DNA from: Crocinitomicaceae bacterium | Lineage (GTDB): Bacteria; Bacteroidota; Bacteroidia; Flavobacteriales_D; Parvicellaceae | Direction: 5' to 3' | Assembly (NCBI GenBank): GCA_018663635.1 | Contig: JABJPZ010000160.1 | Span: 1 to 42,545, forward strand | DNA length: 42,545 nt | Shown here: positions 31,302-42,545 of the stretch, one piece after another | Layout: each line of letters begins with the position of its first letter | Position numbering within the stretch: position 1 is the first letter of the stretch | Notes under the pieces: model-generated | What the model saw: only the letters and a program-made list of their open reading frames with translations | The model's database searches: none | Told to the model about the DNA's origin: nothing | Translations under genes and position numbers: made by a program

Positions 31302-31901
31302 ATGAAAAAGGAAAAATACATTTCTGATAGAATTAGCTTTTTTGATCATGGCTCGAATACGACAATTGTTGTATCCACTGCAATCGATAGATGGAAAGAA
31401 TCGCTGCTTTTATTCTGGATTTTATGCTGGAGTGCATCTGGTTGTTATTTATTGTATGAGCTTTTAGCAGTAAATAATGAACAAGAAATGCAAATTGGGT
31501 TATTTATATTTATCTCTTTTTGGTTTTATTTTGAGTACCGTATTGTTCGTGTATTTTTATGGAGGAAATGGGGAATGGAGTTAATTAGCGTAGATGAAGC
31601 AGAATTATCCTACAAACGGGCAATTGGCAAGTATGGCAAATCAAGTAGGTATTATTTTGATCAGATGGAGCCGTTTGAAGTAAGAAAGCCCAGTGCCAAG
31701 TCTTTGTCCGTTAATATTGAAGATTCATTTTGGTTTCTAGGCGGTGAAAGAGTTCAGTTTAGCTACAAAAATAAGGTCATTTCTTTTGGCAGACAGTTAT
31801 CTTTTGAAGATGCTAATAAACTTGTTAAATTGATTCGTAAGCAAGAGATTTTGCATCAAAAAAGATTGGAGCAGACTACTTTGAAAAGCGAAAAGCAATA
31901 G
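31302..31901 (+). CDS. Hypothetical membrane protein
   Basis: Two predicted TM helices (LLLFWILCWSASGCYLLYELL, IGLFIFISFWFYFEYRIV). Confidence 0.6.
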   Translation: MKKEKYISDRISFFDHGSNTTIVVSTAIDRWKESLLLFWILCWSASGCYLLYELLAVNNEQEMQIGLFIFISFWFYFEYRIVRVFLWRKWGMELISVDEAELSYKRAIGKYGKSSRYYFDQMEPFEVRKPSAKSLSVNIEDSFWFLGGERVQFSYKNKVISFGRQLSFEDANKLVKLIRKQEILHQKRLEQTTLKSEKQ

Positions 31902-32952
31902 AACTCGGACGGATAGTGTTCGTTCCATTTAAATCTTCATGTATTAGCATATTTTGGGCAGTTTCTCCTGCAAAGACTTCTTTCATACCATGGATTGCTC
32001 CGGCTGGTATTTTAGCCTTCAACAAGCCTTTCAATATCTCATCCCTTTCCTTTCCTTGAAAAGACAATGCTAAAACTTCGTTCAAGGCTTTTCTATTTGC
32101 TATGCGGTTTTGATTAGATTGATACTTGCCGTCTTCTAGCTTTTTGTTGTTTAAAATTTTTATTAGGTTTTTGAATTGTTTGTCGTTGCCAATAGCAAGT
32201 ACAAGCCATTTCCCATCTTTACATTGGTAAGTTTCGCCGTATGGTGCGATATTAGGGTGTAATGATCCATTTCTTTTTCCCTCCAGCCCACTCATTAGCC
32301 AATTGGTGGCTTGATTAGCTAGCGAAGAAATGGCAGAGGCCTCCAAAGAAACTTCAATATAGCTTCCAAGATTTTCCTTTTCTAGCTTAAGAAGTGCAAT
32401 TAGCAATGCTTCTTTCATTTGATGACCAGCAATAACATCAATAAGCGCTACAGGCATTTTGGTAGGAGGAGAGTTCGGATGTCCATTCATGTGCATATAT
32501 CCTGTTTCAGCTTGCAAAACGGCATCAAATGCAGGTCTGCTCTTATCTGATTCAAACCCAAATAATTGACATTGAATAATGTTTTCTTTTAAGCTACGAA
32601 AGTAATCGTAAGTTAATCCAAGTTTTTCAGCGTCACCTAGCTTCAAGTTGGTGGTAATTATATCAGCGGATTTGACGTATTCATCAAGTTGGTATTTTTC
32701 TTTTGGATCTTTTAGGTCAAGGAAAACATGTGTTTTCCCATAATTAACAGCGGCGAAATAAGCAGAAATTTCGTTGCTTTGAGAAGCAATTTCATGAGAA
32801 TTTTTCCAGCTTCTAGTCACATCTCCGCCTGTTTTACTATTTTCTATTTTAATAACGTTTGCGCCCAATTCAGCAAAAAACATACCCACAGAAGGGCCAG
32901 CTAAAACACTTGAGAGCTCAATTATTGTAAGTCCTTTAAAAAAGTTGTCCAT
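31876..32952 (-). CDS. CaiB/BaiF-family class III CoA-transferase
   Basis: FFKGLTIIELSSVLAGPSVGMFFAELGANVIKIEN, GDVTRSW, HPNIAPYGETYQCKDGKWLVLAIGNDKQF. Confidence 0.92.
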   Translation of the reverse strand: MDNFFKGLTIIELSSVLAGPSVGMFFAELGANVIKIENSKTGGDVTRSWKNSHEIASQSNEISAYFAAVNYGKTHVFLDLKDPKEKYQLDEYVKSADIITTNLKLGDAEKLGLTYDYFRSLKENIIQCQLFGFESDKSRPAFDAVLQAETGYMHMNGHPNSPPTKMPVALIDVIAGHQMKEALLIALLKLEKENLGSYIEVSLEASAISSLANQATNWLMSGLEGKRNGSLHPNIAPYGETYQCKDGKWLVLAIGNDKQFKNLIKILNNKKLEDGKYQSNQNRIANRKALNEVLALSFQGKERDEILKGLLKAKIPAGAIHGMKEVFAGETAQNMLIHEDLNGTNTIRPSSIAFRFSK

Positions 32953-33064: not shown

Positions 33065-36000
33065 ATGAGTGTAACGGTAAGGAAATTCGGGACGTTTGCA
33101 GGGGTTTATACACCTTCTGTTCTAACTATTCTTGGGGTAATAATGTACCTTAGAATGGGTTATGTTGTCGGTAACGCGGGCATGTGGAGCACCATTGCTA
33201 TTATCCTTGTCGCTCACGTAATTTCTATAACAACAGGATTAAGTGTGGCTTCTATTTCTACTGATCGTAAAATTGAAGCTGGTGGAATATATTACATCTT
33301 GTCTCGAAGTCTTGGTTTGCCTATTGGTGGCGCCATTGGATTCACCTTATTCGTGGGTACAGCTTTGGCTATTTCCCTTTATTTAGTTGGGTTTTCTGAA
33401 TCTTTTATCGATGTTACTGTACCAATTGAAGCCAATTGGTTCGGATTGTCAGACCTGAGTATGATTCGCATTGTTGCAAGTTCAGCATTAGTATTGATTA
33501 CAATTATTGCGTTTATCAGCACCAATATTGCTTTGAAATTGCAATTTATAATTTTAGGTGCGATTGTGCTTTCTTTGATATCCATATTTGGTGGAGATTG
33601 GTCTAACCCAGACCCTATAAATTCGGAATTATTAGAGATTAAAAGAGAGAGTGGTTGGTTTAATTTGTTTGCCATATTTTTCCCTGCGGTTACAGGTTTC
33701 ACGGCTGGTGTTGCCATGTCAGGAGACTTAAAGGATCCGAAGAAGTCGATTCCCAATGGAACTATTTTATCCATTGCAACAGGCCTCATTATTTACCTTT
33801 TTTTAGCAGTTTTTATAGCCGTTAGCATCCCACAAGACCTTTTAATTACGGATGATAATGTTTTAAAAAAATATGCGTGGATTCCTGTTTTAGTAGTTGC
33901 GGGAATTTGGGGTGCAACCTTATCTTCTGCTATCGGTAGCTTATTAGGAGCGCCCAGAATACTTCAGGCGATGTCTATGGACAAGATAGGGCCGAAAATT
34001 TTTGCAAGAGGCTTTGGAGCTGAAAATGAGCCAAGAAATGCTTTGATGCTCACGTTTCTAATTGCTGAAGCAGGCATATTAATAGGAGAGCTGAATACGA
34101 TTGCCGAAATAGTCTCTATGTTTTTCTTGGCGGCATATGGCTTTATAAATTTAGCACAGTTTCTAGAAAGTTGGGCAAGTACAGATTATTTGCCGTCATT
34201 TAAAATCTCGAAATGGTTTGGTTTAGTTGGATTCATTGCCACTTTGTATGTGATGATGATGCTCAATACGGCTGCCATGGTAATTGCACTCATTGTCATT
34301 TTAGGAATATTCGTTTTCTTAACACGGAAGCAAATTACGCTGGGTTCAGGTGATGTTTGGCAATCTGTTTGGTCATCTGTTGTGAAGGCAGGTTTGAAAC
34401 GAATGGATCGCAAGGAAATGCATAAGAGAAATTGGGAACCGAATATTTTGCTTTTTTCTGGTGAAACAGACAACAGACCGTATCTCTTAGAATTTTCAAA
34501 AGCATTAGCGGGAAGGCTTGGTATGATTTCTAATTTTGATTTAGTTGAGACGCCTGATTCTAAAGTGTTGTTTCCAAAACACCAGCAAGCAAAAAGAGAT
34601 ACAGAAATTATAGAGCAGGGTGTATTTTCGAGAAGGCAGGAATGCAAGAATTTATTTCAAGGAATTGAAATGATTTCAGCTACATATGGGTTTTCTGGAA
34701 TTGAACCCAACACGGTGTTAATGGGTTGGGCCAGAAATGCGAAAGATCCAATTTTATTCTCTCAAATGAATAAGCGTTTGATTGATTTGGATTATAATAT
34801 TTTGTATTTAGATTTCAATCAGAAGAAGGGTTTTGGAAATTATACTAGAATTGATCTTTGGTGGGATGGTTTTTCTAAAGACTGCGAATTTATGTTGAGT
34901 TTGGTTAAGCTCATTCAAACCTCTAATCAATGGAGAAACGCACAAGTTCGTGTTTTGATGGTTAACAGTCAGAATGATCAAAAAATCGCTGTCGAGGAGC
35001 AAATAGGTGAGCTCATTGCTGATTTAAGAATTCAGGCCGAAATTGAGGTGGTCAATAATGCAATTGATAAAAAGACTTTTTACAATATTGTAAAAGCGCA
35101 TTCTTTCGACTCTGATTTGATTTTTCTTCCTATTCCTGAATTGGCTCCCGGTAGTGAAAAAGAGTTTGTAAATACAATAGATGAACTGGTAGATAATATT
35201 GGAACAACCGTTTTAGTTAGGGCATCATCACATTTTGATGAAATAGCGATTGACCTCAATACAATCAATGCATTTAATCAAGAATCAGAAGAGCAAGCGC
35301 CATATGTTCTTCAACAAAAAATTACTATTGATGAGTGTAAGTCTAAATTGGTTCAAATAACTGTTGAAAAGCTTTTTGCAGACTTTCGAGAGGTAAATGG
35401 TAAGTACGCACATAATGGACTCAAAGGATTTCATACGTTATACAAAGGAAAGATTGACTATCTGCAAGGTCAACTTCAATTGCTTTTTTTGGAATTCGAC
35501 GGTACTAATGGAGAGCTTAAGAAGAAAATAGAGGGTATTTTAAGAATGGTGATTGACGACATTTCTAGAAAGCAATTGATTCATGCTGCTCAATCTATTC
35601 GAAGTAACTCTTTAAAGCTGATAGATCAGCACCGATTGATATTAGAAAGACAAAAAAGCCGAATAGAACATATTTTTGGTCGCGAAGATTTGTTGCCAAA
35701 ACCACAGGAAGATATTCGTATTTCTAGATCAAAAAAATTAAAAAGAACAATTGCTAAATTTGGAATCAAACCAAAGATTAAGATTCGTTTTCGTGCTCTT
35801 GGTATAAATCGATATGACTATTATTTTATTCCCGAATTTAAAGAGTTAAAAAAATCGTTTTCATTAAGTGGATTTCATGTAATCGAGGACCTGACAAATA
35901 TTTTTCAGGAATTAAATGATACAATTGATGAGTTACCATTAAATCCTTCAAAGCAAGAATTCAAAAAAGTTAATTTAGAATTACAAGATAGATTTGCTTT

Positions 36001-38143
36001 GTTTTTTGAGGATCTCAATAAATACCCTGAGCTCATTATGCATGAGCTTGATATACTCACTTCCCGATATGTCAATAAATTAATTCAGGATTCGAATCGA
36101 GTTGATGTGAACGCAAGACTAGATGAGCGTATTGAAAATCGTTCTGTGTCAAGATTAAAAAGTGATTTGAATTCAATTGGAAGATTTTCTGATGCTTGGT
36201 TATCTTTTCAAAATTTATTACATAACAATTTACTCCTTGAGCAACAATTATCGGGAATAAAGTGTAAGGTTAAACCTGTTGTAGAAGGGAGTACCATTAA
36301 ATTAACGCATGGCATATTTTGGAACTTGAAAAAAGACTTTTCTAATTTTGAAAACCAACTTATTGTACTGCACTCTTCAAATAATACGACCGATGGAATT
36401 GAATTAAACTTTAAGTCTGCTGCATTTTTTGCTTACGAAGAAATTATTAAAGATAATTTGAAGGTGATTTCGGAAATGGTAAAAGATATTCCCGAATCAC
36501 TTTTTGTAATTGATACACAACAAATTGATTTAGAACGGGGAAATTTTCATGAAATCAATAAGTCAAATATTAAGGCGAAAGAGTTAGTGGTCTTTATGCT
36601 TGAGTCAAAATTAGTTGAGGATATTGAGCTGAAAACCCTTGCCATTATTGAGGAAGTTCAAAAACTAAAAGCAGCAACAGAAACAAGTGGGAAATTAGTT
36701 GCTTATACGTGTCAAAATCCAGATGTAAAACCTGAGCAAATTAAAGAAGTGGTTTCAAAAGCTCAAGCGGATTTGACAAGAACAATTGCTAGGGTGCAGG
36801 CGCTGGAGCAAAAGCTAACTACAGAAATTCGAAGTAATTTGATTCATGTCAATGAAATGCTCGATGCGAAGACCTTTATAGCCAGGGCAAAGCAGCTGGG
36901 AAGGTATGTGAAAAGAGACATTACTAAAAAAGGTTTGAGCAACTATGTTACACCGATTTCAAAAGGGGTAGAAAAAATGTACAAAAGGTTAGCCAAAGGC
37001 TATCTGAGCACAAGAGAAGATTTTGTGCAAGCTCAATTTAGAATAGCGAATGAATCGATTCAAAATTTGCATGCTGAAGTTCATGATTTTGTTGAGAAGA
37101 TTTCCATTTCAAGAGAGGTTGAGGATGTTTTACCATTTTATTACAAGCAGCTTTTTCTTGGAAGGCATGCGTTGTTAGATGAGCACTTAATGGAAAAGAG
37201 TCCAGAGCTAGACCAACTAAAAAAAGCTTTGAAAAGAAGTGCGCAAGGAATAGACGGCGCGGCACTAGTTACTGGTTGTATGGGTTCTGGATATTCTTCC
37301 ACGGCAGAAATTTGGGCTTCTAAAATAGAGTCGTCATCGTACTATGAAATTAAGGCTCCTTCTAGGACTGAGTTATTAAATGAGGAAAGTTGGGATAATG
37401 CGATGTTTGCAAGTGCAAACGTCCAAAACTGGCCTGAATATAAAACGAAATTAAATCCTGGCGACACCTTGTTCTTTAAAGACATCGAATTGTGGTTTGT
37501 TAAAGGGGCATCGAATCTAGCATTTGAAAAACTTTTGGAGTTCATCAGAACTTATGGAGGCAAACTCAATATATACATCAGCTGTAACATTGAGTTTTAT
37601 AAATACGTGAGAAAAGTAACGGCCTTTGATAATGTATTGCACTCCTCTATTATTATTGCACCTCGATCTGCAGAAATTGCTACAAAAGAATTGATGCATC
37701 GGCATAATTCTGGTGGAATGAAATTGATGATTGGAGAAAAGTTTTTAAAACAATTACCCAAAAGACAACAGAATAAAATAGTTAAGAAATTTCACCAAAG
37801 GTCTAACGGTACCATAGGATCAGCTTTGTATTTATGGTTAGCTAATATTGTTGAAGTAAAAGGAGATACACTTTATATGAAAGAACCTCCAATAACTACC
37901 AACCCGGTCATCACTAATTCAGATTGGTTAATTTTATTGAATGAGTTTGTGATTCACAAAGAAATGACGGCAGAAACAGCTTTGGTAATTTTTAAAAGTC
38001 AAAGAAAAGCGGTTATACGCAGATCGTTTACGAGTCTTTTAAGGACAGGATTACTCACCGAGAGAAACGAGATTCTTACTATTAATCCATATGCTGAAAT
38101 GTATGTTGAAGAGATTCTAAGAGAAAATGGTATAATTTCATGA
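33065..38143 (+). CDS. 1692-aa SLC12/APC-like cation-chloride cotransporter fused to a long helical region and C-terminal degenerate AAA+-like and winged-helix module
   Basis: FGTFAGVYTPSVLTILGVIMYLRMGYVVGNAG is SLC12-like TM1; about 12 TM helices to residue ~430; NWEPNILLFSGETDNRPYLLEFSKALAGRLG is SLC12 C-terminal-like; TGCMGSGYSST and DTLFFKDIELWF near the C-terminus. Confidence 0.85.
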   Translation: MSVTVRKFGTFAGVYTPSVLTILGVIMYLRMGYVVGNAGMWSTIAIILVAHVISITTGLSVASISTDRKIEAGGIYYILSRSLGLPIGGAIGFTLFVGTALAISLYLVGFSESFIDVTVPIEANWFGLSDLSMIRIVASSALVLITIIAFISTNIALKLQFIILGAIVLSLISIFGGDWSNPDPINSELLEIKRESGWFNLFAIFFPAVTGFTAGVAMSGDLKDPKKSIPNGTILSIATGLIIYLFLAVFIAVSIPQDLLITDDNVLKKYAWIPVLVVAGIWGATLSSAIGSLLGAPRILQAMSMDKIGPKIFARGFGAENEPRNALMLTFLIAEAGILIGELNTIAEIVSMFFLAAYGFINLAQFLESWASTDYLPSFKISKWFGLVGFIATLYVMMMLNTAAMVIALIVILGIFVFLTRKQITLGSGDVWQSVWSSVVKAGLKRMDRKEMHKRNWEPNILLFSGETDNRPYLLEFSKALAGRLGMISNFDLVETPDSKVLFPKHQQAKRDTEIIEQGVFSRRQECKNLFQGIEMISATYGFSGIEPNTVLMGWARNAKDPILFSQMNKRLIDLDYNILYLDFNQKKGFGNYTRIDLWWDGFSKDCEFMLSLVKLIQTSNQWRNAQVRVLMVNSQNDQKIAVEEQIGELIADLRIQAEIEVVNNAIDKKTFYNIVKAHSFDSDLIFLPIPELAPGSEKEFVNTIDELVDNIGTTVLVRASSHFDEIAIDLNTINAFNQESEEQAPYVLQQKITIDECKSKLVQITVEKLFADFREVNGKYAHNGLKGFHTLYKGKIDYLQGQLQLLFLEFDGTNGELKKKIEGILRMVIDDISRKQLIHAAQSIRSNSLKLIDQHRLILERQKSRIEHIFGREDLLPKPQEDIRISRSKKLKRTIAKFGIKPKIKIRFRALGINRYDYYFIPEFKELKKSFSLSGFHVIEDLTNIFQELNDTIDELPLNPSKQEFKKVNLELQDRFALFFEDLNKYPELIMHELDILTSRYVNKLIQDSNRVDVNARLDERIENRSVSRLKSDLNSIGRFSDAWLSFQNLLHNNLLLEQQLSGIKCKVKPVVEGSTIKLTHGIFWNLKKDFSNFENQLIVLHSSNNTTDGIELNFKSAAFFAYEEIIKDNLKVISEMVKDIPESLFVIDTQQIDLERGNFHEINKSNIKAKELVVFMLESKLVEDIELKTLAIIEEVQKLKAATETSGKLVAYTCQNPDVKPEQIKEVVSKAQADLTRTIARVQALEQKLTTEIRSNLIHVNEMLDAKTFIARAKQLGRYVKRDITKKGLSNYVTPISKGVEKMYKRLAKGYLSTREDFVQAQFRIANESIQNLHAEVHDFVEKISISREVEDVLPFYYKQLFLGRHALLDEHLMEKSPELDQLKKALKRSAQGIDGAALVTGCMGSGYSSTAEIWASKIESSSYYEIKAPSRTELLNEESWDNAMFASANVQNWPEYKTKLNPGDTLFFKDIELWFVKGASNLAFEKLLEFIRTYGGKLNIYISCNIEFYKYVRKVTAFDNVLHSSIIIAPRSAEIATKELMHRHNSGGMKLMIGEKFLKQLPKRQQNKIVKKFHQRSNGTIGSALYLWLANIVEVKGDTLYMKEPPITTNPVITNSDWLILLNEFVIHKEMTAETALVIFKSQRKAVIRRSFTSLLRTGLLTERNEILTINPYAEMYVEEILRENGIIS

Positions 38144-38898
38144 ATGAATTGTCTCACATATCGGTTGACACAATCTTGCCTTCGCAAATGCTTCAAGATG
38201 CCGTAATGGGTATAGATGTTGCTTCAAGTCGAGGAATATCATTAGGATCTATCTTGTTGCTTATAGTAGGTGCCGTAATAATGTTTACATGCTTTTATTT
38301 GATAAATGAATACGGTATAAAATTGGTTCAAAATAAAAGAGCACGAGCGAGTGCAAAGCGGTATTTTCCGATTATTACTTCTTTTATATGGTTAGGTTAT
38401 TTTATTTACAGTGGCTATGTGATTTTGGCACCATACCCTTTAATTGGAATTGGAGTTATTCTTTTTCTTTTACTTGGTTTTTGGCGATTTATTAAAGATT
38501 TTATCGCTGGATTAGTTTTTAGAATTCAAGATAATTATAGGGTTAACCAAAGGATTCAACTAAAGAGTAACTCAGGAATTATAGTGGAACTGCTGACCAC
38601 ACATGTAGAACTCGAATCAGATAGTGGAGAGCGTATTTTTGTTCCGTTTACGGAGTTTTTTAATCAAATAATCAGGAAACCTTCGGTTCAAGAGCGATTG
38701 AAACAATTCTCATTAGAAATATCGGTAGCCGCTGAAGTAGATTTTGGACAATTTGAAAAGAATGTATTGAGCTGTCCCTGGATTATTACAGAAAAAACTC
38801 CGCGATTGATCCAAAATTACAAGGAGGGTACAATTCGAATTTCAGGTTATACTATTGATTTGAAGTATGTAGCTCATATTAGAAAGTACCTTGAATAG
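38140..38898 (+). CDS. MscS-like small-conductance mechanosensitive channel family protein
   Basis: Three TM helices, then GFWRFIKDFIAGLVFRIQDNYRVNQRIQLKSNSGIIVELLTTHVELESDSGERIFVPFTEFFNQII (MscS TM3/beta-domain pattern); ATGA overlap with upstream stop. Confidence 0.75.
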   Translation: MNELSHISVDTILPSQMLQDAVMGIDVASSRGISLGSILLLIVGAVIMFTCFYLINEYGIKLVQNKRARASAKRYFPIITSFIWLGYFIYSGYVILAPYPLIGIGVILFLLLGFWRFIKDFIAGLVFRIQDNYRVNQRIQLKSNSGIIVELLTTHVELESDSGERIFVPFTEFFNQIIRKPSVQERLKQFSLEISVAAEVDFGQFEKNVLSCPWIITEKTPRLIQNYKEGTIRISGYTIDLKYVAHIRKYLE

Positions 38899-38935
38899 AA
38901 AATGTATAAATAGAATTACTCAATACGAGGAATTG

Positions 38936-40207
38936 ATGAAGAATATAACGGGCATAAAGTATTATTCATTTTTTGCTATTGTTTTTTTTGGAGCGGTATC
39001 ATATTCACAATCAACAGAAACGTTAAAAATCAAATTAGATAAACTTCAAAATGCCAAAGGAAGAATCGAGTCTACAATAATTGATATTAATCTAAAAATT
39101 GAAGAGGTTAAATTAAAATTGGTTCATAATGATTTGGTGGAATTAGGATTCCCAACTTCTGATTTGGTCATTCATCATAAGGCATTGTCAATTGCTTACT
39201 GGGAAGATTATGAACAAGCTAAGTGGGTAGCTCACATTATTTCTCCCGAAATCATTAATGGTTCTGTACATCGTACAAACGACTTCCGAATTGACACATT
39301 AGTTAGGTCAGGATCATCAGAAGAATTGGATTTTTTTGTAAAAAGTCAAAATGAAGAAGGAGAAGATATTTATGATGGATTTGGTTATGACCGAGGTCAT
39401 CTTGCACCATCGGCAGATTTTAGATGGTCTAGGGTCGCGCTGTCTGAATCTTATTATTATTCCAATATGTCACCGCAATTTCCAGAATTTAATCGAGGTA
39501 TATGGGCAGAATTAGAAAATCAAATTCGAGCTTATGTCAGTGCTCACCCAAAGAATCAATTACATGTAGTTACCGGGCCTATATTTGAAGGTGAGGTGTC
39601 TTTTATCGAAAGAAGTAAAAATCAAGTTGCGATTCCTGATTATTTCTTCAAGGTGATTTTGGATAAAAAACGAAATAGTTCTGTGGCGTTTGTTCTCCCG
39701 CATGCCAGAAATATACACTATCCACTGGATACTTATATTGTGACAGTTGATGAATTAGAAAAACGTACAGGTTATGATTTTTTTCCAAACATCGAAAATG
39801 ATTCCTGTGAAGCTGTAGTAGATGCGAGAGCGTGGTTAAAAACGACGGAAAATGGTGATGTTACTCCAGTTTCGGCAGTAAACCTTCCGAAAGGGCATTT
39901 TAATACCGTTGACGCAAAAATTTATATGAATGATGGTAGCAAAGTGAAGGTGGTAGGTCAAGTTGTAAGTGCCAAGAAAACAAGCAAGGGAAACGTGATG
40001 ATAAATCTCGACAAGCAATTTCCGAATCAAATTTTCACCTTATTTATAAAAAAAGAGGACCTTGTTAATTTTACTTACGATCCAGCACATTTTTTAAAGG
40101 GTAAAGTTATCGTTGCAAGAGGTAAAATCAGTAGTCTAGGTAATACGCCAACGATGTTTGTGAATGGTGAACAACAACTTAATTTGTTTGATCAGGAAAA
40201 GAAATAA
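38936..40207 (+). CDS. Secreted DNA/RNA non-specific endonuclease (NUC1 family) with C-terminal OB-like extension
   Basis: Signal peptide from 38936; DRGHLAPSADFRWS (DRGH motif), YYYSNMSPQFPEFNRGIWAELENQIR. Confidence 0.88.
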   Translation: MKNITGIKYYSFFAIVFFGAVSYSQSTETLKIKLDKLQNAKGRIESTIIDINLKIEEVKLKLVHNDLVELGFPTSDLVIHHKALSIAYWEDYEQAKWVAHIISPEIINGSVHRTNDFRIDTLVRSGSSEELDFFVKSQNEEGEDIYDGFGYDRGHLAPSADFRWSRVALSESYYYSNMSPQFPEFNRGIWAELENQIRAYVSAHPKNQLHVVTGPIFEGEVSFIERSKNQVAIPDYFFKVILDKKRNSSVAFVLPHARNIHYPLDTYIVTVDELEKRTGYDFFPNIENDSCEAVVDARAWLKTTENGDVTPVSAVNLPKGHFNTVDAKIYMNDGSKVKVVGQVVSAKKTSKGNVMINLDKQFPNQIFTLFIKKEDLVNFTYDPAHFLKGKVIVARGKISSLGNTPTMFVNGEQQLNLFDQEKK

Positions 40208-40358: not shown

Positions 40359-40736
40359 TTATGCGGTAACTGGGATTAAACGGAAGTCTAAGTCAAATCG
40401 AGATTGAAAAACTTTTCCTTCATCTAAAATCTCTTCATCATCCTCGTCATATTTCCAAAATACGATCAGCTCGTTCTTATTTGTTACGTCATATAAGGAT
40501 TCTATGATATCGTAAACAACTTTTTGGGAAATTGAATTGAGATAATCTAAATAAAATGTTAATTGTGTTTTTGGACTAGGGTTGTGCTTATATTCATCAA
40601 TCCAAACCAAGAAAGGTCTATAAAAGCTCGTTGCATTTTCTGGTATTGAACGACCAGAAATTAGTATTTCACCTGTACCACAATTACCAGATACGAGCGG
40701 TGTGTGTTTCGTCGCTTCTATTACGAAATTTTCCAT
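40359..40736 (-). CDS. DUF1987/SiaC-family protein (copy 2)
   Basis: GEILISGRSIPENATSFYRPFLVWIDEYKHNP...LDYLNSISQKVVYDIIESLYD matches DUF1987; start at MENFVIE. Confidence 0.82.
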   Translation of the reverse strand: MENFVIEATKHTPLVSGNCGTGEILISGRSIPENATSFYRPFLVWIDEYKHNPSPKTQLTFYLDYLNSISQKVVYDIIESLYDVTNKNELIVFWKYDEDDEEILDEGKVFQSRFDLDFRLIPVTA

Positions 40737-40895
40737 TCTTGAAATATAAAAAAAAAGCAGGATTAGCATGGCGAATATTATGTTTTACTTGAAAATGACT
40801 CCTTATTTTCGAAAAAAAAACGAGGAAAGATTAAAATTATGACAACCGAATAGTAAATTAATCGTCACATTTGTAATAACCACACACTTTGCCCT

Positions 40896-41242: not shown

Positions 41243-42545
41243 ATGAGGCATATATTTCTTTTGGTTTTTAGTCTTTTCACAATTTGTATTGTTCATGGGC
41301 AGTGTGGACCGTTATCAACACCAACTTTTACAAATAATGGTCAAAGCGGAATCATGTTTGACGTTGTAGCACTCACGCCAGTTACAATTACTCAGTTGGC
41401 CATGGATTACGATCCTGGTAATTATAATATAGAAGTATATTCAATAGCGGGTACGCATGTTGGCAATGAAATGAATGCCGCTGCGTGGACATTACAGGGT
41501 GTGTTTAATGGTTTGAATTTTCCAGCAGCAGGCATTAATACGCTCATACCAATTGTTTTTAATCAATTTATTTGTGCCGGTGATCGTGCGGGATTTTACA
41601 TTACTGCTAACAACAGTACTAGTGGGAATTATTCGAATGGAACTGGCGTTGGAAATGTGATTGTTGCTGATGGTAATATTCAAATTCTGGAAGGGACAGG
41701 GAAAGCCCACCCCTTTGGTACAAGCTTTACCCCAAGGGTCCCTAATGTTACGGTTTTTTATGATTGTTCAGTCAGTTGTTGTACCCCTCCAACAATGAGT
41801 ATGGTAGCATCCAGTTGTGCCGGTGCGTGTGATGGCACAGCCATGGCGACGGTAGGTGCAGGTGGAATAGGACCATATACTTACCTTTGGGATGCTGCTG
41901 CTGGTAATCAAATAACTCAAACTGCCGTTGGATTGTGTGCAGGAACCTATACGGTTGAAGTAACGGATAATACGGGTTGCGTATCTTCTGGTACGGTAAC
42001 TGTGAGCAGCGGGACTGCGGTTGCAGATGCTACAATTACTGGAGCTGGACCATTTTGCGAGACCACTGTACCCTTTAATTTAACAGCAGCTGAGCCTGGA
42101 GGAACTTGGAGCGGAACGGGAATAACTGACCCCGTAGCAGGAACTTTTGACCCAACTGTGGCCGGTCCCGGCAATTGGACTATTACTTATACGATTTCAG
42201 GAGCATGTGGCGCTTCAGATACTGAAGATATCACCGTTTTGGCTAATGCTAACGCCACGATTACCGCTGCCGGACCATTTTGTACAGGAGACCTTGCTTT
42301 TACTCTTACCGCTGCTGAAGTGGGGGGTACATGGTCAGGAACAGGCATTACGAATGCAACAACAGGAATATTCGATCCTGCCTCAGCTGGACCAGGAAAT
42401 CATACGATTACTTATAGTATAGCAGGTGCATGTCCAGATGCCCAGACTACATCCATAACGGTCAATTTGACTTTGGACGCAACAATAAATACCGTCGGAC
42501 CTTTTTGTGAAAGTGATCCTGTAATCACTTTAACGGGAGCAGATC
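41243..42545 (+). CDS. N-terminal part of large SprB/Ig-like repeat adhesin; runs off window end
   Basis: ATG at 41243, open to 42545; signal peptide MRHIFLLVFSLFTICIVHGQ; SprB-like LCAGTYTVEVTDNTGC; then 75-aa repeats ATITxAGPFC...GGTWSGTGIT...GxFDP...AGPGNxTITYxIxGAC. Confidence 0.85.
   Translation, partial: MRHIFLLVFSLFTICIVHGQCGPLSTPTFTNNGQSGIMFDVVALTPVTITQLAMDYDPGNYNIEVYSIAGTHVGNEMNAAAWTLQGVFNGLNFPAAGINTLIPIVFNQFICAGDRAGFYITANNSTSGNYSNGTGVGNVIVADGNIQILEGTGKAHPFGTSFTPRVPNVTVFYDCSVSCCTPPTMSMVASSCAGACDGTAMATVGAGGIGPYTYLWDAAAGNQITQTAVGLCAGTYTVEVTDNTGCVSSGTVTVSSGTAVADATITGAGPFCETTVPFNLTAAEPGGTWSGTGITDPVAGTFDPTVAGPGNWTITYTISGACGASDTEDITVLANANATITAAGPFCTGDLAFTLTAAEVGGTWSGTGITNATTGIFDPASAGPGNHTITYSIAGACPDAQTTSITVNLTLDATINTVGPFCESDPVITLTGAD
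42029..42545 (+). repeat. 225-bp (75-aa) in-frame tandem repeat, at least 2 full units plus a partial
   Basis: ATI motif codons at 42029, 42254 and 42479, an exact 225-nt period. Confidence 0.85.

Follow-up and report, generated by a model that had tools for sequence, protein, structure and literature searches.

The gene pair at the locus

The window, by which we mean the whole stretch of 42,545 nucleotides analysed here, holds a pair of overlapping genes on the forward strand. The first encodes one long protein in which the transmembrane (TM) core and cytoplasmic C-terminal domain of an SLC12 cotransporter are followed by a helical module and then by an AAA+ domain with a winged helix. The second encodes a small protein of the MscS family (Table 1).

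Table 1. Features of the cotransporter-module gene and its partner, in window coordinates
Feature	Position	Strand	Details or basis
Cotransporter-module ORF	33065-38143	+	1692 aa, ATG start, no internal stops
SLC12 (cation-chloride cotransporter) TM core, residues 1-440	33065-34384	+	Pfam, TIGR00930, KCC4 6ukn alignment
Y106, predicted K+ site (KCC4 Y216 / NKCC1 Y383)	33380-33382	+	KCC4 alignment; PMC7200160, PMC7889885
P207-A-V-T210, predicted K+ site (KCC4 P429 and T432)	33683-33694	+	KCC4 alignment
ATLSS, A284 to S288, predicted NKCC-type Na+ site	33914-33928	+	Signature in PMC11641049, serine pair in PMC7200160
Y358, predicted Cl- site (KCC4 Y589)	34136-34138	+	KCC4 alignment
SLC12-type cytoplasmic C-terminal domain, residues 441-735	34385-35269	+	KCC4 alignment up to residue 666; profile boundary ~733
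Helical module with two short beta hairpins, residues ~740-1330	35282-37054	+	AlphaFold2 model; hhalign homology across fusion types
AAA+ and winged helix, ORC/Cdc6/STAND kind, residues 1335-1692	37067-38140	+	Foldseek; homologues match AAA_16 and related models
Degenerate Walker A GCMGSGYSS with Tyr in place of Lys, residues 1404-1412	37274-37300	+	
MscS-family partner gene, 252 aa	38140-38898	+	Overlaps cotransporter stop codon by 4 bases; Pfam, fold

A sequence-only reading of this DNA had proposed that the first ~750 residues form a complete cation-chloride cotransporter, and profile and structure comparisons bear this out. Pfam AA_permease matches residues 15-438 (E 4e-47), Pfam SLC12 matches residues 593-670 (E 3.6e-7), and the K-Cl cotransporter model TIGR00930 matches residues 4-558 (E 2.5e-119). 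In addition, the KCC4 cryo-EM chain 6ukn aligns to residues 4-177 and 200-666 (E 4.8e-79). Sequence homology to solved KCC and NKCC structures settles that the N-terminus is an SLC12 homologue, and not a protein with a fold outside the SLC12/APC group.

The same reading had a single frame running on for ~900 residues past the transporter. An extension of about 900-950 residues is indeed found in ~50 homologues, which have the whole architecture in common as intact long ORFs from many genomes. Two congeners carry the same 1692-residue protein, uninterrupted, with identities of 92% and 60%. Full-length ORFs, 1630-1705 aa long, come from throughout the family, from further families of the order and from further classes of the phylum, and most genomes of the window's family have the fused gene. 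With this recurrence among Bacteroidota homologues, the extension is neither a lone case nor a frameshift product. An assembly or frameshift artefact that joins separate genes has practically no probability left, being refuted by the ~50 intact long ORFs and by both congeners, although split or joined frames do occur in a few relatives. In one of them, L050, two small indels relative to a 97% identical sister explain the split frame, and we therefore discount its apparent AAA-MscS fusion. Between the window gene and its nearest congener, omega is 0.03 in the TM core and 0.02 in the SLC12 C-terminal domain. The values for the helical part (0.11) and the AAA part (0.10) show that the extension is a protein under purifying selection.

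Predicted ion sites and folds

In KCC4, the K+ ligands are the Y216 hydroxyl and the carbonyls of N131, I132, P429 and T432, and Y589 contributes to a Cl- site (PMC7200160). The Na+ site of NKCC1 involves L297, W300, A610, S613 and S614 (PMC7889885). Its consecutive Na+-coordinating serines are kept in all Na+-transporting members and are Gly and Ala in KCC4 (PMC7200160), and ATLSS is the signature of the site (PMC11641049). The window protein has the two consecutive TM8 serines of NKCC-like members (S287 and S288), and these, like A284, are invariant in the 52 fused homologues that cover them. P207 and T210 (52/52) and Y358 (52/52) are likewise invariant where covered, as is Y106 (51/51). Because the ion-site residues are conserved, Na+/K+/Cl- symport is the likely activity of the SLC12 part.

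Compared with the animal NKCC and KCC proteins, the window protein is alike in its TM core, its C-terminal domain, the Y/P/T residues of the K+ site and the Tyr of the Cl- site (PMC7200160, PMC7889885), and it has the same Na+-site ATLSS as NKCC. It differs in having Thr at the TM1 Asn position (KCC4 N131 / NKCC1 N298), as do the fused homologues throughout, and in adding the ~950-residue AAA+ extension and the MscS-like partner gene. Prokaryotic cation-chloride cotransporters, for which a C-terminal domain structure is credited to Warmuth et al. 2009 (as cited in PMC4301019), are alike in core and C-terminal domain. Unfused SLC12 relatives of 730-750 aa in the same order (L043, L046-L048) are without the module, and no MscS match was found near these four loci.

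We modelled the extension (residues 739-1692) with AlphaFold2 from 50 sequences. Since the mean pLDDT is 84.7 but the pTM is 0.52, the local folds of the model are credible and its overall arrangement is not. Foldseek matched the last ~360 residues to archaeal ORC2 and Cdc6 (1w5s, 1fnn), to RuvB and to the ATPases 2qen and 2fna, so that the terminal nucleotide-binding-like fold suspected from the sequence is now predicted to be an AAA+ fold. In the structure search the AAA part alone was matched, and the helical part (~600 residues) had no counterpart among solved structures; when the PDB was searched with a sequence profile built on the AAA part, the matches were weak and of the generic P-loop kind only.

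The AAA+ and winged-helix fold is like that of ORC/Cdc6 and STAND-type ATPases, and most homologues have a Walker A motif. Unlike those ATPases, the domain is here part of a fusion protein, together with a membrane transporter and ~600 aa of helical sequence, and in the window's genus its Walker A motif has lost the lysine: the window protein does not have the GxxxxGK[ST] of active ATPases. The lysine is kept in 58 of 72 homologues and has changed about four times on the tree, in this genus and elsewhere. Since several lineages have lost it, ATP hydrolysis cannot be essential in every one of them.

The sequence of the partner gene matches Pfam MS_channel_2nd above the cut-off, and a profile of its family matches the MscS structure 2vv5 (E 1.1e-11). 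Its predicted fold is that of MscS, MscK and YnaI, with TM helices, a split third helix, a beta domain and an alpha/beta domain. The window's genome contains four MscS-domain matches, of which the partner gene is one.

The module and its partners in Bacteroidota

Profile comparison by hhalign shows that the SLC12-fused, standalone and exchanger-fused modules are homologous at 100% probability over ~830-870 columns, with the helical part included. On this sequence evidence, the C-terminal extension is a separate evolutionary module, widespread in Bacteroidota, which also occurs on its own or joined to other transporters. The SLC12 fusion is found in the window gene and about 50 others. A Na+/H+ exchanger domain is fused instead in proteins of ~1500 aa (L161-L164, L187), and three of these loci (L161, L162, L187) have TrkH next after the MscS gene, two of them (L162, L187) with a confirmed TrkA as well. 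In L165-L167 and L188, a separate Na+/H+ exchanger is the neighbouring gene. In L194, the module is fused to a ten-TM domain, with TrkH and TrkA upstream and adjacent. Most other module loci are transporter-free. Exchange is also seen at closer range: L044, placed within the SLC12 clade, keeps the module and MscS and has no SLC12 part, and genome G466 has one SLC12-fused and one standalone copy. Every transporter that could be assigned, fused or neighbouring, is a monovalent-ion transporter. TrkH is present in 37 of the 40 relatives searched, so the cotransporter-module system is additional to ordinary K+ uptake.

Directly upstream of the exchanger-fused module gene lies a gene for a ~414-aa protein (L161:10797-12041, L162:10688-11956, L163:11548-12792, L187:3021-4265). 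Those tested gave no Pfam match. The protein does resemble, weakly, the profile that we built for Na+/H+ exchangers.

An MscS gene directly adjoins the module gene at 107 of 114 Bacteroidota module loci, on the downstream side in 102 (97 of them within 20 bp) and upstream in 5. Three of the seven remaining loci lie at contig ends (L049, L068, L069), and L050 is counted as an exception although its frameshifted frame itself contains MscS. L166 and L188 have a short three-TM protein in the MscS slot. In L017, MscS is truly absent from the 1.4 kb downstream of the SLC12-module gene (L017:1-1449).

Near-obligate adjacency and overlapping reading frames would also fit a module that serves as an assembly factor, helping the MscS-like oligomer to assemble or to be anchored in the membrane, with the transporter fusion merely tethering it. 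Fusion to transporters as unrelated as SLC12 and the Na+/H+ exchanger could then be membrane anchoring alone. Yet the identified fused transporters all carry monovalent ions, the SLC12 ion-site residues are invariant, and TrkH/TrkA and exchangers cluster with the module-MscS pair. We give this explanation a rather small chance.

Three observations on the partner slot may be added. The proteins at L166:7172-7729 (-) and L188:6172-6735 (-), each of ~185 aa with hydrophobic segments, lie between the module and the Na+/H+ exchanger gene, and a similarity to MscS was looked for and could not be shown. L017, where no MscS gene follows, belongs to a lineage that is without the Walker A lysine too. 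At L154:3779-5766 (-), two more MscS-domain genes lie near the module-MscS pair, which makes three MscS-family genes in that stretch.

The MscS partners themselves differ with the presence of a transporter. All 46 MscS proteins paired with transporter-free modules have the TM3a Gly/Ala/Gln motif of canonical MscS (G[FL]A[AS]QD), whereas the 58 paired with transporter-linked modules, the window's partner included, all lack it. The SLC12-linked partners are, in addition, short (~240 aa). Judged from these sequences, the family divides in two: a channel type, and a transporter type whose MscS is changed. The loss of the motif in the latter suggests a changed pore. Because the tree requires just one motif change and two transporter-state changes, the link is a clean association and not a test by independent contrasts, and it may reflect just one or two ancestral events. 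A statistical claim for it was dropped, the independent-pairs test being without power at these numbers of changes, and a Fisher p-value was set aside because it takes no account of relatedness.

The motif also bears on a pump-leak arrangement in which signals run in the opposite direction from the one we favour. Here the AAA+ module would read a cytoplasmic cue such as a nucleotide or ionic strength and gate the MscS-like protein, which would act as a channel for ion release. The attached transporter would refill the cell, as co-localised cargo rather than as the regulated part. The pairing of all standalone modules with a canonical-motif MscS means that gating MscS may be the ancestral task, and AAA+ proteins of the ORC/STAND kind, the fold that Foldseek assigns to the module, are nucleotide switches. 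However, the transporter-linked partners are without the conserved TM3a motif, which suggests a changed pore, and several lineages no longer have the Walker A lysine. We regard this arrangement as unlikely, though it deserves to be kept in mind.

Proposed role of the pair

We give about an even chance to the reading that the pair forms a complex for osmotic control or ion homeostasis, whose MscS-like tension sensor governs the transporter by way of the AAA+ module. The two products would associate in the membrane. The N-terminal half of the large protein is a cation-chloride cotransporter and, judged by its conserved site residues, would move Na+, K+ and Cl- together. The C-terminal half would be a regulatory module that works together with the small MscS-like product of the overlapping gene next to it. 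The MscS-like protein would sense membrane tension, that is turgor, and the AAA+ module would pass this signal on to the transporter fused to it, switching ion uptake on or off with changes in cell volume. A Na+/H+ exchanger, alone or with TrkH/TrkA, is what the module-MscS pair is coupled to in relatives. At transporter-free loci, the canonical-motif MscS partner is itself probably the regulated output.

Such a relay from tension to transporter would account for two findings: MscS partners have lost the pore motif at loci with an attached transporter, and all assigned partner transporters carry monovalent ions. Against it stand the separability of the components, as in L044, which has no SLC12 part, and L017, which has no MscS in the 1.4 kb downstream; the loss of the Walker A lysine in this genus and elsewhere; the one or two ancestral events that may underlie the pore-motif association; and TrkH, a further K+ route in most of the relatives searched. 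The evidence for the relay is wholly genomic and from structural prediction. The sequence-only reading had proposed an allosterically regulated ion or solute transporter. Such regulation of an ion transporter remains the best guess, but the reading missed both the MscS link and the nature of the extension as a separate module. In general idea, the arrangement resembles Trk/Ktr systems with TrkA/KtrA, in which an ion transporter is run by a nucleotide-binding cytoplasmic regulator, and TrkH and TrkA genes adjoin some of the module-MscS pairs. It differs in that the regulator is an AAA+ domain and fused, rather than a separate Rossmann protein, and in the presence of the MscS partner.

A wider form of the proposal, which we advance tentatively and with some doubt, is a control system that spans Bacteroidota. 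Its MscS-family protein would have given up the role of a conventional channel and would sense membrane tension, and a shared AAA+ module would connect it to one or another of several interchangeable ion transporters (SLC12, Na+/H+ exchanger, Trk cluster). If true, this would be direct mechanical regulation of secondary ion transport.

How volume or tension is linked to cation-chloride cotransport is a central question of physiology, and cotransporters of the SLC12 kind control chloride in human nerves and kidneys. In animals, this link runs through the kinases WNK-SPAK/OSR1, the subject of PMC7606576. A bacterial NKCC-like cotransporter with a fused regulator and an MscS-like protein would be a compact and testable case of tension-controlled cotransport. 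In the open-access library searched, we found no description of a fused cotransporter/AAA+ module combined with MscS. The components belong to known families, and the broader system would be the novel case. Our data offer a likely role for a large uncharacterised gene pair spread through Bacteroidota and point to the module and MscS pair as an unstudied osmotic-control system across a bacterial phylum.

Defence systems can pair a STAND-like NTPase with an adjacent membrane protein, and the layout seen here would fit an anti-phage or other conflict system in which such an NTPase triggers an MscS-type membrane effector. We consider this very improbable. The PADLOC models for known anti-phage defence gave no match, the genes are linked to ion transporters, and their occurrence in the window's family is not sporadic, most of its genomes having them. 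Similar chromosomal neighbours also recur between genera. Upstream of the cotransporter lies a divergent gene of CoA-transferase family III (31876-32952, -), and similar-looking genes hold its place in other genera of the family (L035, L036, L037, L051, L052), which points to a conserved chromosomal context.

On the other side of the pair, a DNA/RNA non-specific endonuclease gene (38891-40207, +; Endonuclease_NS, E 2.6e-48) begins before the MscS-like gene ends and is found at this place in the genus only. It is followed by a gene for a SiaC family regulatory phosphoprotein (40359-40769, -; E 5.5e-31) and by a frame that runs off the window end (41243-42544, +), whose match to the SprB repeat (E 3.7e-6) narrowly misses the curated cut-off.
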